Assembly (NCBI GenBank): GCA_001648575.1
Contig: LQXN01000063.1
Span: 62,001-126,000 of the forward strand
DNA: 64,000 bases
Source: Sutcliffiella horikoshii DSM 8719
GTDB taxonomy: Bacteria > Bacillota > Bacilli > Bacillales > Bacillaceae_I
Direction of reading: 5' to 3'
The notes below the pieces were generated by a model, which ran no database searches, was not told the origin of the DNA, and was given only the letters and a program-made list of their open reading frames with translations. This document shows positions 17,745 to 58,448 of the stretch, piece after piece; within the stretch, counting starts at the first letter, position 1, and each line of letters opens with the position of its first letter. Both the position numbers and the translations under genes were made by a program.

Positions 17745-18125
17745 TAATCCCTCATTCTACAATCTATTAACATGTGAATATGTAAGGTTTTTCAACTGAA
17801 AGTATAAAGAACTTCCCCAAATAACACAAGCCTTATCCACAAACTGTGGATAAAGCCTCACCAAACCGTGGATAACTATGTGAATAATGTGGAAATCCCC
17901 GTTTAAAAGGGGAATTGCAAAGGATTTCCATTGTGCGTTAATGCGTTAACTGACTGATAAGGGGTCTGACCCGCTATGCGTTAATGCGTTAACATACCGC
18001 AAAGGGGTCTGACCCCTTTCTATAGTTCGCACACCATGAGAGTGCAGTCGGCTTGTTGGGTGATTTCATGGAAGAAGGGGGATGCGAGCATGGTTTGTGG
18101 TGCTGTGTGTATAGGTTGTGGATAA
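17683..18125. promoter_or_regulatory. Cluster of DnaA boxes at the ywlC-ywlB junction
   Basis: Exact matches to TTATNCACA on either strand: 17683-17691, 17713-17721, 17833-17841, 17845-17853, 17879-17887 (TTATTCACA) and 18117-18125. One-mismatch sites lie at 17867-17875 and 17773-17781. Chance expectation in about 440 bp is well under one. From memory, the ywlC-ywlB region of B. subtilis is one of the known DnaA-box clusters outside oriC, so this is probably a conserved initiator-titration or regulatory site. Confidence 0.75.
17934..18019. repeat. Family B repeat with doubled 17-bp word
   Basis: The 17-mer TGCGTTAATGCGTTAAC occurs at 17934-17950 and again at 17977-17993, and is itself a near-tandem pair of GCGTTAA. 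Between and after lie GGGGTCTGACCC and, at 18001-18019, the perfect palindrome AAAGGGGTCTGACCCCTTT. The last abuts the ywlB stop codon and can act as a weak terminator. Confidence 0.7.
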
Positions 18126-27201: not shown

Positions 27202-27719
27202 GATGAAGACACTTTTGCCGTGTTTTTCCTGCTGACTTTGTCTTCATACTACTGATGAAGACACTTTTGCCGTGTTTTTCGCGCTGACATTGTCTTCATA
27301 CTACTGATGAAGACACTTTTGCCGTGTTTTTCCTGCTGACATTGTCTTCAGACCACTGATGAAGACACTTTTGCCGTGTTTTTCCTGCTGACATTGTCTT
27401 CAGACCACTGATGAAGACACTTTTGCCCTGTTTTTCCTGCTGACATTGTCTTCAGACCACTGATGAAGACACTTTTGCCCTGTCGTGTTTTTCCTGCTGA
27501 CATTGTCTTCATACCACTGATGAAGACACTTTTGCCCTGTTTTTCCTGCTGACATTGTCTTCAGACCACTGATAAAGACACTTTTGCCGTGTTTTTCTGC
27601 TGACTTTGTCTTCATACTACTGATGAAGACACTTTTGCGTGTTTTTCCTGCTGACTTTGTCTTCATACCACCGATAAAGACACTTTCTCTGTATTTTTCG
27701 CTCTGATATTGTCTTCATA
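27202..27719. repeat. Ten tandem copies of a 52-bp unit
   Basis: Units begin at 27202, 27254, 27306, 27358, 27410, 27462, 27519, 27571, 27622 and 27673. Seven of the nine spacings are exactly 52; one is 57 through a small duplication and two are 51. Each unit runs from GATGAAGACACTTTTGCC to GACATTGTCTTCA plus about seven bases. TGAAGACA and TGTCTTCA are inverted repeats, so adjacent units can form hairpins with a nine-base loop. The unit length is not a multiple of three, so it does not encode a repeated peptide. It lies between the rho terminator and rpmE; the rest of 26956-27201 shows no further signal. Confidence 0.95.
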
Positions 27720-39736: not shown

Positions 39737-40294
39737 TTAGAGGTCTTCTTCCTCATCCTCTTCCAATTCTTCCTCTTCCTCATCGTCCTCGAGCTCATAC
39801 TCCTCGTCTTCGACTAGGTCTTCTTCAAACTCTTCGTCATCGTCGTCTGCATCATCATCGGCATCGTCAAAGTCTTCCTCTTCAACTTCTTCCTCTTCAT
39901 AATCATCCAGATCGTCGAATTCCAATTCTTCTTCATCCAACTCATCGAATTCGTCTGCGTCGATATCGTCCTCATCCACAGCCTTTTTCTTCTTCTTAGT
40001 CTTTGCCTTAACCTGAGGAGTTGTTTCTTCTTCTATTTGATCATAAGGATACCATGCACGAAGTCCCCATTGGTTTTCTCCAATACAAATGAAACGGCCG
40101 TCAATGTTTAAGTCCGTATAAAACTGAGACAATTTGCCTTTAAGGTCTGCATCTTTGAAACCGGTGATTTTCTTGATCTCCGTAATTAATTCACCAAAAG
40201 TCACAGACTGCTTCTTTTCATGAAATAAAGCAGTAGCGATTTCGATCAATGACATCTCTTGTACTTCTTCTGCCGTTAAATGGTTTAATGCCAA
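39737..40294 (-). CDS. rpoE: RNA polymerase delta subunit
   Basis: Firmicute-specific subunit that speeds polymerase recycling and tunes sensitivity to the initiating nucleotide. 185 residues; a globular N-terminal HARE-HTH domain (to about 90, with FYTDLNIDGRFICIGENQWGLR) then a Lys patch KAKTKKKKKA and a tail of almost only Asp and Glu. The start is TTG at 40292-40294 behind AAAGGATG; this aligns with the B. subtilis N-terminus, unlike the in-frame ATG at 40330. Confidence 0.95.
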   Translation of the reverse strand: MALNHLTAEEVQEMSLIEIATALFHEKKQSVTFGELITEIKKITGFKDADLKGKLSQFYTDLNIDGRFICIGENQWGLRAWYPYDQIEEETTPQVKAKTKKKKKAVDEDDIDADEFDELDEEELEFDDLDDYEEEEVEEEDFDDADDDADDDDEEFEEDLVEDEEYELEDDEEEEELEEDEEEDL

Positions 40295-45647: not shown

Positions 45648-45736
45648 ATTTTTCATCCCCCGATGATTTAGTTTTTGGTGTTTCTCATGTCGCTTTTGTT
45701 ATGGTGTTTAAGCAAGAGATTAGTCAGTTTTCCGTT

Positions 45737-45946
45737 GTGAAGGGATTTTTGTCAGTTATGACGGAATCATTCATCTTCGTGACGGGATTTTAATGACTTA
45801 TGACTGGATTATGGAACGTTATGAAGGGATTCTCCATGTGCTCTCTCTTTATTTAGTCTCTTGGTGGTGAAACCATCGTATATGTGACGGGATTATAACT
45901 GGAAGTGACGGGATTCCCTGTTCTTGTGACGGGATAATTACTTAAG
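45737..45946. repeat. 21-bp repeat array 1 (5 + gap + 3 units)
   Basis: Units with core RTGAMGGGATT start at 45737, 45758, 45779, 45800 and 45821, all 21 apart; then after 63 bp (three periods) at 45884, 45905 and 45926. About ten bases of each unit are variable. It lies in the 373-bp gap upstream of the acyl-CoA dehydrogenase gene. No other gene or hairpin is apparent there. Confidence 0.9.
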
Positions 45947-53577: not shown

Positions 53578-54531
53578 ATGAGGATTCGTTTCGGCTTTGT
53601 ATCGCAGTCATGGACACTTTGGGAAGCCTCCCCTGCCAGAGCACTGACCTATACACGGTATAAACAGATGTCTCCTGATGAGGGAAGGGAAAAACTGCTT
53701 TCGGTGACCAGGGAGAATTTAAGAAATACGCTGAGGACCATCTACTACTGCATCGCTCATGAGATTCAAGTGTTCCGCTTCTCTTCTTCCATCGTCCCGC
53801 TTGCTACCCATCCTCATGTGAAGTGGGATTTTGTAAAGGAATTTGAGGCTGAATTCAGGGAGATCGGGGATCTGGTGAAGGAATATGGGATGCGTTCGAG
53901 CTTTCATCCCAATCAATTTACTCTTTTCACGAGTGATAAGCCGCATATTACAGAGAATGCGGTGATTGATATGGTCTATCATTATGAGATGCTGAAGGCG
54001 ATGGGGCTTGAAGATGAGGGTACCATCAATATACATGTTGGTGGGGCGTATGGGAACAAAGAGCTTGCTTTGGAGCGGTTCAGGGAAAATATTGTTTCGC
54101 TTCCTGATGAGGTGCGGGCGAGAATGACGCTTGAGAATGATGATAAGACCTATACGACGGAGGAAACCTTGGTGCTGTGCGAGGAGCTTGGGATCCCGCT
54201 TGCATTTGATTACCATCATGAGTACGCCAATCCAAGTTCGGTGTCGTGGGAGGAACTGCTGCCGCGGGTGTATGCGACGTGGAAGGATATCGGGATCATT
54301 CCAAAGATACATATCTCCTCCCCTATTTCGGAAAAGAAATTGAGGCACCATGCGGATTTTGTGGATGTACAATTTGTGATGGAGTTTTTGAAAGTAGTGG
54401 TTGGGCTGGACCAAGATGTCGATTTCATGGTGGAAGCAAAAAGAAAAGACGAAGCCGCACTGCAGCTCTGCGAAGAAATCGGGCAAATCCGTGGGGTGAA
54501 GAGGATTAGCGGTGGTGCGGTGGAGTGGTGA
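53578..54531 (+). CDS. uvsE: UV damage endonuclease UvsE
   Basis: TIM-barrel endonuclease that nicks 5' of cyclobutane dimers and 6-4 photoproducts. 317 residues from MRIRFGFVSQSW. Metal-ligand segments SFHPNQFTLF, INIHVGGAYGNKE, LENDDKTYT, FDYHHEYANP and PKIHISSP are all present. AAAGGAG is 11 bases upstream. In B. subtilis ywjD it protects spores and cells from UV. Ends in a strong inverted repeat shared with the opposing XapX gene. Confidence 0.92.
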   Translation: MRIRFGFVSQSWTLWEASPARALTYTRYKQMSPDEGREKLLSVTRENLRNTLRTIYYCIAHEIQVFRFSSSIVPLATHPHVKWDFVKEFEAEFREIGDLVKEYGMRSSFHPNQFTLFTSDKPHITENAVIDMVYHYEMLKAMGLEDEGTINIHVGGAYGNKELALERFRENIVSLPDEVRARMTLENDDKTYTTEETLVLCEELGIPLAFDYHHEYANPSSVSWEELLPRVYATWKDIGIIPKIHISSPISEKKLRHHADFVDVQFVMEFLKVVVGLDQDVDFMVEAKRKDEAALQLCEEIGQIRGVKRISGGAVEW

Positions 54532-54583
54532 AGAGGTAAAGAGGGGTCTGACCCGCTGTGCGGTGATGAGGTGGAGTGATAAA

Positions 54584-54632
54584 GAGGGGTCTGACCCTCA
54601 CCGCTCTAATGCGGTGAAGGGCCAGACCCCTC
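54584..54632. terminator. Family B hairpin between uvsE and the XapX gene
   Basis: GAGGGGTCTGACCCT, CACCGC, loop TCTAAT, GCGGTG, AGGGCCAGACCCCTC: about 21 pairs. A second half-copy, GAGGGGTCTGACCCGC, precedes it at 54541. It can end both convergent transcripts. Confidence 0.8.
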
Positions 54633-54932: not shown

Positions 54933-56603
54933 TTACATCTTCTCTGGTGCTGAAACCCCGATGAGCTTAAGTGCATCCTCTAACGTGGTTTGCACTGCTT
55001 TCATCAACCCAAGTCGTGCTTTGGATTTTTCCTGGTTGTCTGCATCCAGAACTTTTTCCGCATTGTAGAAGCTGTGAAGCGCGGAGGCAAGTTCAAATGT
55101 GTAATTTGTGATACGGTGCGGGATGCGTTTTTCTGCCGCTTCCGCAACCGCAAGCGGGTATTCACCTAGCTTTTTCAAAAGGTCGATCTCTTTTTCAGAA
55201 GAGATGTGTTCAAGCGCGAGGTCCCCATCCAGGCTTAAGCCTTGCTCTTCCCCTTGGCGAAGCATGCTGCAAATACGTGCGTGCGCGTATTGTGCATAGA
55301 ATACCGGGTTTTCGTTGGACTGGGAGACTGCCAGGTCCATGTCAAAGTCTAGATGCGTGTCACCTGAACGCATCGCGAAGAAGTAACGTACTGCATCAAG
55401 CCCCACTTCTTCCATCAAGTCGCGCATCGTCACCGCTTTACCTGTACGCTTGCTCATTTTCATCTTTTCGCCGTTTTGGAAAAGGTGGACAAGCTGGATG
55501 ATTTCCACTTCCAGTGCGTCTTTTCCGTAACCAAGTGCTTCAATGGCTGCTTTCATACGAGGGATGTAACCGTGGTGGTCTGCTCCCCAGATGTTGATCA
55601 GCTTGTCATGGCCGCGCTTCAACTTGTCCTGGTGGTACGCGATGTCAGGCGTCAAATATGTGTAAGAACCGTCATTTTTAATCAGAACACGGTTTTTGTC
55701 ATCGCCGAATTCAGTGGAGCGGAACCATGTCGCTCCCTCTTCTTCATATATGTGGCCCTGTTCGCGAAGGGTCGATAGTGCCTCGTCGATTTTCCCGTTG
55801 TTGTAAAGGGATGTCTCGGAGTACCAAACATCAAAACGGACACGGAATTCTTCTAGGTCCTGTTGCAGTTTTTTCATTTCGTATTTCAAGCCGTATTCAC
55901 GGAAAAAGCTACGGCGGTCCTCTTCTGATTCGTTGACGAAACGGTCGCCGAACTCATCTGCGATTGCCTGGCCGATCCCGATGATGTCTTTTCCATGATA
56001 GCCGTCTTCCGGCATTTCCATCTCTTGTCCAAGCGCCTGGAAGTAACGGGCCTCAACGGAAAGCGCCAAGTTGTTGATCTGGTTACCTGCGTCGTTGATG
56101 TAATATTCGCGGGTTACTTCATATCCAGCCTTATCAAGTACATTACAGAGGGAATCCCCCACTGCCGCACCACGGGCATGTCCAAGGTGAAGGTCGCCTG
56201 TAGGGTTTGCTGAAACAAACTCGACATTTATCTTTTCGCCTTTACCGACATTTGAACTTCCGTAGTTGGAACCTTCTTTAAGGATTGTCGGAATCAAGTC
56301 CGTAAGATAAGCATTGTCCATGTAAAAGTTGATGAAGCCAGGTCCTGCGATATCGATTTTTTTGATGGATGCTTTGGATTGATCGAAGTTTTTCACGATT
56401 TCTTCTGCAATCATGCGAGGCGCTTTTTTCGCAACGCGTGCAAGCTGCATTGCCATATTGGTGGAGTAGTCTCCATTTGCTTTGTCCTTCGGTGTTTCCA
56501 AGACAACCGCCGGGATCTGCTCCTCTGTTGCCAAGCCTGCTTTAAGAACGGAAGCTTTTATCTCTTCTTTCAGGCGTTCTTGTACTTGTTCTACAATATT
56601 CAT
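54933..56603 (-). CDS. argS: Arginyl-tRNA synthetase
   Basis: Class I synthetase of 556 residues that charges tRNA-Arg. N-terminal tRNA D-loop-binding domain (1-115), HIGH-type motif HLGHARGA at 139-146, a KMSKR motif in [18 protein letters not shown], and the C-terminal anticodon-binding DALR domain ending [11 protein letters not shown]. The start overlaps the ywiB stop by four bases, so the pair is coupled. No T-box is visible in the leader of the pair. Confidence 0.98.
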
Positions 56604-57055
56604 CTTGCCTGTTCCTCCTCGTAGTTGATTGTTATCAAGTATTGACCGGTTATTTGGTCTTGAACCTTCAATTTATAGTCGAGCTGCAAACAGCCTCTTT
56701 TCTTATCGGAATCCTTCATCATGACCACTTTTTCGGTTTCGGTTTCAAACTGGAATCCTGCACCAGCGCCCTGGTAGCTTCCTTCTGTCGTTTCACCGGC
56801 ACGGAAGGATTGCAGCATATTGATGTCCCCTGAGCGTTTCAGGCGTACTTCTTTGTCTGTAATTTTATAAAAACAATCGACCTTCTCCTTCCCTTCGAGT
56901 TCCTCCGAGAAGACGATGTATTCTGATTCACCTTTTATGTAGTATTGACCATCTGCTCCAAACACAACAAATTCCCTGTCATTATCCGCATGTATTATTT
57001 CCGACTGGAACGTCACCTTTATCGGCATTTTTAAGTGATTTTGATTGTCTGCCAT
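56600..57055 (-). CDS. ywiB: DUF1934 family protein YwiB
   Basis: 151 residues from [28 protein letters not shown] is better placed for this ATG than for the GTG three codons up. DUF1934 members form a lipocalin-like beta barrel; here [21 protein letters not shown] and [20 protein letters not shown] are the recognisable strands. The role is unknown, but the family is tied to argS in Bacillaceae, as here by an ATGA overlap. A 21-bp repeat array lies 200 bp upstream. Confidence 0.88.
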
Positions 57056-57260
57056 CTGGCCCACATCCTTTTATCTTTAACGCTTATTGGTTCGCGTCGA
57101 TTTATCTATAACCTTCATAGTATAAAACAACTAGTGGTGGGAGTTCAATAGAGGATATGGTTTAGGGAGGGGGAAATTGATGGAATATGGCGGTGGAATT
57201 GGTTGGTTCGGCCGGGTTTGGGTGAATGATTTTGGGTTTGTACACGGGGCAATTTGGCTT

Positions 57261-57469
57261 GTGACGGGATTTTTAGTGGTTGTGAAGGGATTCTAAGGAG
57301 TAATGATGGGATTTTGTTGAATTGTGACGGGATTTTAGTCCGTTATGACGGGATTCCAATTTTCTACACTTCTTTCTTCTCTAAAAATAAGTGAGGTAGT
57401 AGGATTGTGACGGGATTATCGCTTGTTATGACGGGATTCCACACTTTTGTGAAGGGATTAGATTGGACA
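57261..57469. repeat. 21-bp repeat array 2 (5 + gap + 3 units)
   Basis: Cores RTGANGGGATT start at 57261, 57282, 57303, 57324 and 57345, each 21 apart; then 62 bp later at 57407, 57428 and 57449. The layout is the same as array 1 to within one base. It occupies the gap between the speB terminator and ywiB; the rest of 57056-57575 shows no other signal. Confidence 0.92.
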
Positions 57470-57575: not shown

Positions 57576-58448
57576 TTATTTCACCCAACCTAAAATCATT
57601 TCACGAATCAGCTTGCTCGCTGTGTTGGCAGTCTGCTCGGAAGTGTCATAGATTGGTGCTACTTCCACAAGATCCGCTCCGACAACGTTTACTTCAGAGC
57701 CTGCAATAGCGTGGATGGATGCAAGCAGTTCACGGGATGTGATGCCGCCGCAATCCACCGTTCCAGTTCCTGGTGCGTGGGCAGGGTCAAGGACGTCGAT
57801 GTCGATCGTTACATAAACCGGTCTGCCGACAAGTGTCGGAAGGATTTCCTTCAATGGCTCAAGCACCTCGAATTTGGAGATGTGCATGCCGACTTCCTTT
57901 GCCCATTGGAACTCTTCCTTCATGCCGGAACGGATTCCGAATGAGTACACATTTGTCGGTCCGATCAGATTTGCTGCTTTCTTGATCGGTGTGGAGTGGG
58001 AAAGCGGCTCGCCTTCGTAGTCGTCACGAAGATCTGTGTGAGCATCCATGTGGATGATGGCAAGGTCCGGATACTTTTTGTACATCGCCTTGATGACAGG
58101 CCATGATACAAGGTGCTCTCCGCCCATTCCAAGAGGGAACTTGTCTTTTTCTAAAAGGCTGTCGATGTATTCTTCAATCATTTCGATGCTTTTTTGCGGA
58201 TTGCCGAATGGCAAAGGGATGTCGCCTGCATCAAAGTATTTCACTTCTTCCAGTTCGCGGTCAAGATACGGACTGTACTCTTCAAGTCCGATGGATACTT
58301 CGCGGATACGGGCAGGGCCGAAACGGGATCCCGGACGGTAACTCACTGTCCAGTCCATCGGCATGCCGTAAATCACTGCCTGGCTATCTTCAAAGCTTGG
58401 GTGGCTCTTAATAAACACGTTGCCTGAATATGCTTCATCAAAACGCAT
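57576..58448 (-). CDS. speB: Agmatinase
   Basis: Ureohydrolase that makes putrescine and urea from agmatine. 290 residues; manganese ligands in GGEH (109-112), DAHTD (135-139) and DIDVLDP (216-222), with AHAPGTGT as the substrate loop. AAAGGAGGAAACC is upstream. Follows speE by 78 bp; together they give putrescine then spermidine, so arginine decarboxylase must be encoded elsewhere. Confidence 0.96.
   Translation of the reverse strand: MRFDEAYSGNVFIKSHPSFEDSQAVIYGMPMDWTVSYRPGSRFGPARIREVSIGLEEYSPYLDRELEEVKYFDAGDIPLPFGNPQKSIEMIEEYIDSLLEKDKFPLGMGGEHLVSWPVIKAMYKKYPDLAIIHMDAHTDLRDDYEGEPLSHSTPIKKAANLIGPTNVYSFGIRSGMKEEFQWAKEVGMHISKFEVLEPLKEILPTLVGRPVYVTIDIDVLDPAHAPGTGTVDCGGITSRELLASIHAIAGSEVNVVGADLVEVAPIYDTSEQTANTASKLIREMILGWVK

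Follow-up and report, generated by a model that had tools for sequence, protein, structure and literature searches.

The 64-kb stretch of DNA analysed here (the window) contains, between a gene for a YwiB-like protein, which is followed by argS, and a gene presumably coding for agmatinase (speB), an array of eight short repeats, all of them on the plus strand (array B; Table 1). The names ywiB-argS for the left neighbours are adopted from a preliminary description of this DNA, which had also reported five units spaced 21 bp apart, a break of 62 bp and three further units, an arrangement that is confirmed for array B when measured between unit starts. The units of array B were scored as TGACGGGATT-type with at most one mismatch, while the second copy in the window, array A at a distance of 11.5 kb, includes one unit with two mismatches (45759). 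Both arrays stand out in the lag-21 score, with values of 10.4 at 57254 (array B) and 8.9 at 45756 (array A) compared to a maximum of 6.5 over 100 dinucleotide shuffles, and the sole further peak above that value (9.4, position 39743) falls on repeats of short period recorded by TRF at 39744-39869. Cores with at most one mismatch occur 22 times in the window versus 4.6 expected, a number reached in none of 100 shuffles. The gap is pyrimidine-rich in both arrays, as had been claimed, but no common gap sequence extends across the family, and neither gap nor flanks contain any sequence common to the paralogs among 29 aligned elements. The view that the two arrays are not recent copies of each other is upheld. 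The window also harbors 43-bp two-copy repeats at 17934-18015 and 54515-54597 with GGGGTCTGACCC in common, perhaps representing a further dispersed family.

Table 1. Features of the window and the NERD-A gene. Core starts of array B refer to the T of TGA.
Feature	Position	Strand	Core start	Basis
52-bp palindromic tandem array	27202..27719	.		unit match to type II NERD-adjacent units
Array A, second family copy, eight units with a step of 63 bp from unit 5 to unit 6	45735..45936	+	45738, 45759, 45780, 45801, 45822 / 45885, 45906, 45927	
argS, after YwiB-like gene	54933-56603	-		
YwiB-like protein gene, left neighbour of array B	56600..57064	-		
Array B, eight TTRTGAMGGGATT-like units arranged 5 + 3	57259..57459	+		lag-21 and core matching
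Array B unit 1	57259..57271	+	57262	
Array B unit 2	57280..57292	+	57283	
Array B unit 3	57301..57313	+	57304	
Array B unit 4	57322..57334	+	57325	
Array B unit 5	57343..57355	+	57346	
Array B gap, units 5-6, 62 bp core to core, unconserved among paralogous elements	57356..57404	.		
Array B unit 6	57405..57417	+	57408	
Array B unit 7	57426..57438	+	57429	
Array B unit 8	57447..57459	+	57450	
speB-like gene (agmatinase, presumed), right neighbour of array B	57576..58448	-		
NERD-A gene, 327 aa, adjoins accB, outside the window	G000:C59:128082-129062			

As judged from a search with a two-unit pattern, which weaker elements may escape, arrays A and B belong to a family of dispersed elements, referred to here as TGAC arrays. 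With up to three mismatches the pattern matches 80 places in the genome of the window (G000), 62 forward and 18 reverse, and a reversed control pattern gives no match in the same genome at the same tolerance. With up to two mismatches, TGAC arrays are found in four of 61 genomes, namely in four of the 16 from the genus Sutcliffiella and in none of the 45 others. An exact scan of a named genome collection, in which the window's own record was possibly left out, yielded 23 stretches, 13 of them in Bacillus/Sutcliffiella horikoshii and 10 being single pairs in unrelated taxa that look like chance matches. The fetched loci and the window together contain 32 elements (14 in G000, 8 in G002, 6 in G012, and 4 in G015), and 28 of these show all eight slots with at most three mismatches, steps of 21 bp (two of 22 bp) and a gap of 61-63 bp, the four exceptional ones retaining five to seven units. 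The layout assumed to be conserved in the preliminary description thus does recur, and its "defined element" of about 210 bp turns out to be a family with a fixed 5 + 3 arrangement, for which no name was found in the literature searched. The units are asymmetric direct repeats, and because steps of 21 bp and gaps of 62 or 63 bp correspond to two and six helical turns (at 10.4-10.5 bp per turn), all eight sites would be located on one face of the helix.

Unit cores diverge between related elements by 9.9%, compared to 25.2% for the spacers (eight loci, 24 elements; p = 5e-34 for non-independent pairs), although this comparison is biased toward core conservation, because the elements were found by core matching, and one of its eight groups is a within-genome duplicate. 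The cores are the less divergent part at seven of the eight loci, and the contrast is nearly gone in the mutS2 group (11.2% versus 12.5%). Within the core, the T and G of TGA are changed in 0-1% of the cases, whereas the degenerate positions R (23%) and M (32%) vary most. Plain slippage, named in the preliminary description as an observation that would speak against a defined element, or functionless decaying copies of a miniature transposon would be in line with the varying copy number, with the TTCGG-type arrays treated below exceeding 200 unit pairs in three genomes, and with one TGAC element being a segmental duplicate beside prfB fragments. This explanation appears most improbable, since the spacers within one array are mutually unrelated while the cores are constrained, the layout is fixed, and the alignment reveals no common sequence outside the units. 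With regard to the terminal inverted repeats and target duplication of MITEs, no similarity between paralogs was seen outside the units, and filled and empty groES sites showed no obvious duplication by eye.

The elements of G000 are associated with unrelated core genes, most of whose names we presume from their sequences: they are found at two acyl-CoA dehydrogenase genes, ywiB/speB, purH/purD, prfB and a YitT-like gene, groES and a CAAX-protease gene, convergent genes for a MutS-like and an S8-peptidase-like protein, accB and a NERD gene, a cydCD-like ABC exporter, glmS/glmM (two elements), and an ABC sugar importer. One further array (L062, G000:C5:403975-404173) adjoins decayed prfB fragments and originates from segmental duplication of the element linked to prfB. 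The position upstream of minus-strand genes pointed out in the preliminary description is correct within the window, but elsewhere codirectional, divergent, and convergent intergenic regions are occupied as well, and a role tied to the position upstream of ywiB-argS finds no support, as neighbours and orientations vary among the copies. An operator controlling transcription of the flanking genes (ywiB-argS or speB), in line with the regulatory role suggested in the preliminary description, would agree with the window copies and with those at groES, accB, and the cydCD-like genes, which stand between divergent genes. We consider it very unlikely, because the arrays adjoin housekeeping genes with no relation to each other, G000 has at least one convergent site (mutS2-like/S8-peptidase-like), and sister species lack the TGAC array at argS, groES, accB, and prfB. 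An element functioning at the RNA level, as a sponge or leader with eight repeats of GUGACGGGAUU, is scarcely conceivable: the asymmetric motif is indeed repeated on one strand, but its spacing is rigid in helical turns, its orientation to the neighbouring genes varies, and Rfam returned no match at the gathering threshold for seven sources.

Comparison of the sites where the TGAC family occurs, a choice that provides no background rate, indicates that several of them are shared with other repeat families. The groES intergenic region measures 315 bp in G000, 363 bp in G002, and 300 bp in G012, all with the array, and 22 bp in G015, G001, and G013 or 11 bp in five other sisters, all without it; no clear array of any kind was found at groES in species lacking the TGAC element there. 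The sequence of G015 at this site resembles those of G001 and G013, and a small tree of two genes places G015 as sister of G012 (support 1.0), with G000 poorly placed. At ywiB/speB, the place of the TGAC array is taken by a 52-bp tandem array in seven sister species and by another kind of 52-bp array in G009. The accB site is occupied in five sisters by a second 21-bp family (CTTCGGWCA, with steps of 21, 32, 22, and then 21 bp), and neither an array nor a NERD gene was found there in G001, G006, and G009. After prfB, 21-bp arrays with different motifs are present in G005 and G014, and a 52-bp array in G013; G002 contains a TTCGG array in the intergenic site of the acyl-CoA dehydrogenase genes where the window carries array A. 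The occurrence of different families at identical intergenic sites suggests that these are preferred sites.

The eight TGAC elements found in G002 span 0.17-2.26 Mb of a 4.25-Mb contig with dnaA at 0.55 Mb. They show no polarity with respect to the replicating strand, three being oriented with the fork and five against it, as worked out by hand with the origin set at dnaA and the terminus taken to lie opposite. This is of relevance for the idea, also raised in the preliminary description, of a chromosome-organising element, in which NERD-A (see below) or another architectural protein would bridge the dozen or so arrays, whose sites would be kept for nucleoid structure without any copying. Such an element, which we regard as unlikely but still to be reckoned with, would agree with the helically phased and constrained units, the conservation at loci of core genes, and the presence in both convergent and divergent intergenic DNA. 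Against it, besides the lacking fork polarity in G002, matching arrays are missing from 12 of the 16 genomes of the genus, and at groES three species possess the array but G015 does not, rather loose behavior for an essential organiser.

The check proposed in the preliminary description for a DNA-binding gene with an array in its own promoter led to the NERD gene adjoining accB, whose product (NERD-A) is a putative DNA-binding protein. It matches PF08378 (NERD) with an E-value of 5e-16 and 59.6 bits, compared to a curated cut-off of 22.1, as its sole Pfam match. NERD-A is present in all four species with TGAC arrays (84-100% identity), and an array is located upstream of its gene in all four genomes; in G000 there are even three tandem elements (L066 9545-10478) with a period of 362 bp, the third of which keeps seven of the eight units. 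A scan of the same upstream region for promoters was uninformative (5 promoter-like sites versus 3.1 expected). The five species with TTCGG arrays at accB encode a related protein, NERD-B, which is 46-48% identical to NERD-A (55-58% over the N-terminal stretches covered).

All 24 aligned rows of the NERD subtype to which these proteins belong (type I) keep E48, D83, (E/D)96, and K98, which we take to be the E...D...(E/D)xK residues of the PD-(D/E)XK nuclease motif, as well as Cys 245, 248, 262, and 265. These residues fit an intact PD-(D/E)XK-like site combined with a zinc ribbon, making NERD-A a predicted nuclease, and the C-terminus may be read as a ribbon/HTH-like, putatively DNA-binding part. 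An AlphaFold2 model from a two-sequence alignment reached a pLDDT of 37, so this DNA-binding part is read from the sequence only, and comparison with solved structures returned nothing beyond weak similarities to zinc ribbons and chance matches (best E 0.086). With regard to defence systems, NERD-A received no PADLOC match, and two other NERD proteins scanned gave weak matches to PglW and PDC-M16A, with MAD6 and PglW staying below the NCBIfam cut-offs. An origin from phages or plasmids was also considered and dropped, because no relatives were detected in viral contigs (with the type I profile, A2) or in plasmids and phages (by tblastn with NERD-A).

The association of NERD genes with arrays extends beyond NERD-A. 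Genomes of the genus contain 5-14 NERD matches each, compared to any match at all in three of 14 control genomes. Subtypes were assigned with profiles from alignments A2 (type I) and A3 (type II, about 305 amino acids), and a gene was counted as paired if an array scoring at least 7 lay within 700 bp. The count comprises 80 of the 167 NERD matches of the genus (10/14 in G000, 10/13 in G002, 8/11 in G013, 10/11 in G009, 2/9 in G005, 9/12 in G012, 11/13 in G006, 10/14 in G007, 5/10 in G015, 3/6 in G014, and 2/10 in G004) plus L066 and L075, together with 30 loci from a survey of 150 genomes and 11 of 30 loci from a further search; it omits L359 because of its short frame, and three duplicate genes were merged. 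Some NERD frames (L314, L323, L337, L339) are of reduced length or end prematurely in one species, their relatives in other species being full length.

Type I genes are preceded by an array with a period of 20 or 21 bp in 53 of 62 cases (55 of 65 rows) within the genus, where they come from 14 Sutcliffiella genomes, and in 14 of 23 cases outside it; downstream, such arrays accompany two of 62 genes in the genus and six of 23 outside, two of the latter having them downstream only. Type II genes, on the other side, are followed by a 52-bp array in 23 of 25 cases and preceded by one in five of 25. Among the control ORFs, whose larger sets include loci chosen for their arrays and ORFs that are possibly not genes, 20/21-bp arrays stand upstream of 42 of 455 (12 of 146 with NERD loci alone) and downstream of 68 of 474, and 52-bp arrays downstream of 27 of 474. 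The other NERD subtypes have arrays in one of nine cases upstream and in one of nine downstream, and several of the type I misses display a period of 41 bp (L276, L286, L369).

The array motifs differ between NERD paralogs, and orthologs share their motif where compared. Among 61 type I arrays, motif similarity amounts to 0.57 for proteins of more than 75% identity versus 0.24 for the reverse complement, the same strand being higher in 62 of 62 pairs; at 60-75% identity the values are 0.33 versus 0.15 (34 of 34 pairs), and below 50% there is little signal. Four NERD proteins from outside the genus (G040, G044, G077, G083), with identities of 43-48% in the pairs listed, have a TTGGACAGTAAAA-like motif in common on the same strand. 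This correlation between motif and protein can be put down in part to common descent of the upstream DNA.

Copies of several NERD-adjacent families are also found dispersed in the genomes. A profile of the NERD-A array recovers other TGAC arrays in the DNA examined, and the families of L282 and L312 also have copies elsewhere, whereas no dispersed copies of three other NERD families of G000 were seen in the 295 kb examined. The 52-bp array of the window is interpreted as such a copy, belonging to a type II family, because its unit scores 38 (G012), 31 (G007), and 29 (L272 of its own genome), compared to a shuffle maximum of 17. Altogether, eight of nine dispersed 52-bp arrays match units adjacent to type II genes, with top scores of 31-43 versus maxima of 17-22 for the shuffles of each array. 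Matches to NERD units of the same genome exceed the shuffles in G000 (29), G007 (36), G009 (29), and G013 (43); in G006 they fail to do so for the units examined (19 versus 20), and for G001, G003, and G008 the comparison included no type II unit of their own genome. The ninth array, located at prfB in G013, matches no NERD-adjacent unit.

TTCGGWCA arrays are located upstream of NERD-B in all five genomes encoding this protein, but pairs of TTCGG units (at most two mismatches) are also abundant in genomes without it, namely 170 in G012, 139 in G006, 126 in G015, and 44 in G002. A strict one-to-one pairing of NERD proteins and arrays is therefore rejected: the pairing may be looser, the arrays may persist after loss of their partner, or they may have a different reader. 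At five of the ten fetched loci in G002 (L409, L411, L413, L415, L416), one and the same IS3-like element is inserted between TTCGG units, with about 1.44-1.47 kb between the flanking units and an rve domain in the L411 copy. Such interrupted arrays are as expected of relics; the other loci are uninterrupted.

The persistence of TTCGG arrays without NERD-B could also mean that the binder is some protein other than the putative DNA-binding protein NERD-A, with the NERD-adjacent arrays being incidental or serving another factor. This alternative seems decidedly unlikely in view of an association that depends on the subtype of the NERD gene, on its upstream or downstream side, and on the repeat period, and that is seen upstream of only one of nine genes for other subtypes in the same genomes. 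The likely explanation, in our opinion, is that the array represents the cognate multi-site DNA target of NERD-A, maintained by selection and spread in a manner similar to RAYT-REPIN systems. The observations behind it are the family with its fixed 5 + 3 layout, the constraint on the units in place, the co-occurrence with NERD-A within the genus, and the general association of two NERD subtypes with arrays of differing motif beside their genes; a point against it is that nine of the 23 type I genes outside the genus lack a clear 20/21-bp array upstream. NERD-A would then bind all eight units next to one another along one face of the helix via its C-terminal ribbon/HTH-like part, and the array upstream of its own gene would be the master copy and probably an autoregulatory operator. 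Dispersed copies may arise in intergenic DNA through NERD-dependent nicking or recombination, and would thereafter be retained as bound sites.

Among known systems, the closest way of working is that of RAYT and REP/REPIN sequences, for which the accessible part of the literature describes a single-copy chromosomal enzyme gene beside its own repeats, several such pairs per genome, and extragenic dispersal (PMC3116915). The NERD genes are likewise flanked by their own repeat family, which is also found dispersed, albeit not for every family. The insertion of ISPpu9 in REPs, as described in the available part of the respective paper (PMC8450116), parallels that of the IS3-like element inside the TTCGG arrays. 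Unlike RAYT, the enzyme is a member of the NERD-domain proteins (PF08378) with a PD-(D/E)XK-like site and no Y1 (IS200-like) transposase, the neighbour on the accB side matching only PF08378. Instead of inverted palindromic pairs as in REPs, the arrays, with a putative mobilisation, consist of 52-bp tandem units or of 8-10 direct repeats in helical phase; the 52-bp type II unit of the window does contain a palindrome.

Plasmid iterons and partition centromeres consist of direct repeats about two helical turns apart that are bound cooperatively by one protein. The TGAC arrays differ from these in being chromosomal with about a dozen copies, and NERD-A has no plasmid relative by tblastn. A protein gene beside conserved repeats with variable spacers is further reminiscent of CRISPR loci, but the units of about 13 bp, the spacers of 8 bp, the dispersed copies, and the conserved positions are not. 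The putative CRISPR auxiliary genes named in a legend of one paper include NERD, and the accessible part of that paper describes no such pairing of NERD and arrays. More generally, no published link between NERD proteins and repeat arrays was found in the accessible parts of the openly available literature (including PMC9040797, PMC10910872, and PMC12802215), subscription papers being outside its scope.

On balance, we lean toward regarding these pairs as an undescribed two-part class of chromosomal systems extending across the order, which would consist of predicted PD-(D/E)XK NERD paralogs, each with its own phased array that the protein would read, use for autoregulation, and spread, with motif and protein co-evolving. 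Of the 150 genomes sampled from the order, 113 contain matches to the type I NERD profile (E up to 1e-20), and the role of the NERD domain in bacteria is unstudied according to the part of a recent paper available to us (PMC9040797). The private gene-adjacent arrays provide ready candidate substrates for these proteins, and the presence of several pairs of paralog and motif per genome would offer a natural series for the evolution of DNA specificity. If true, the NERD proteins and their arrays would represent an additional, independent version of the way in which RAYT-REPIN systems live in the bacterial chromosome.
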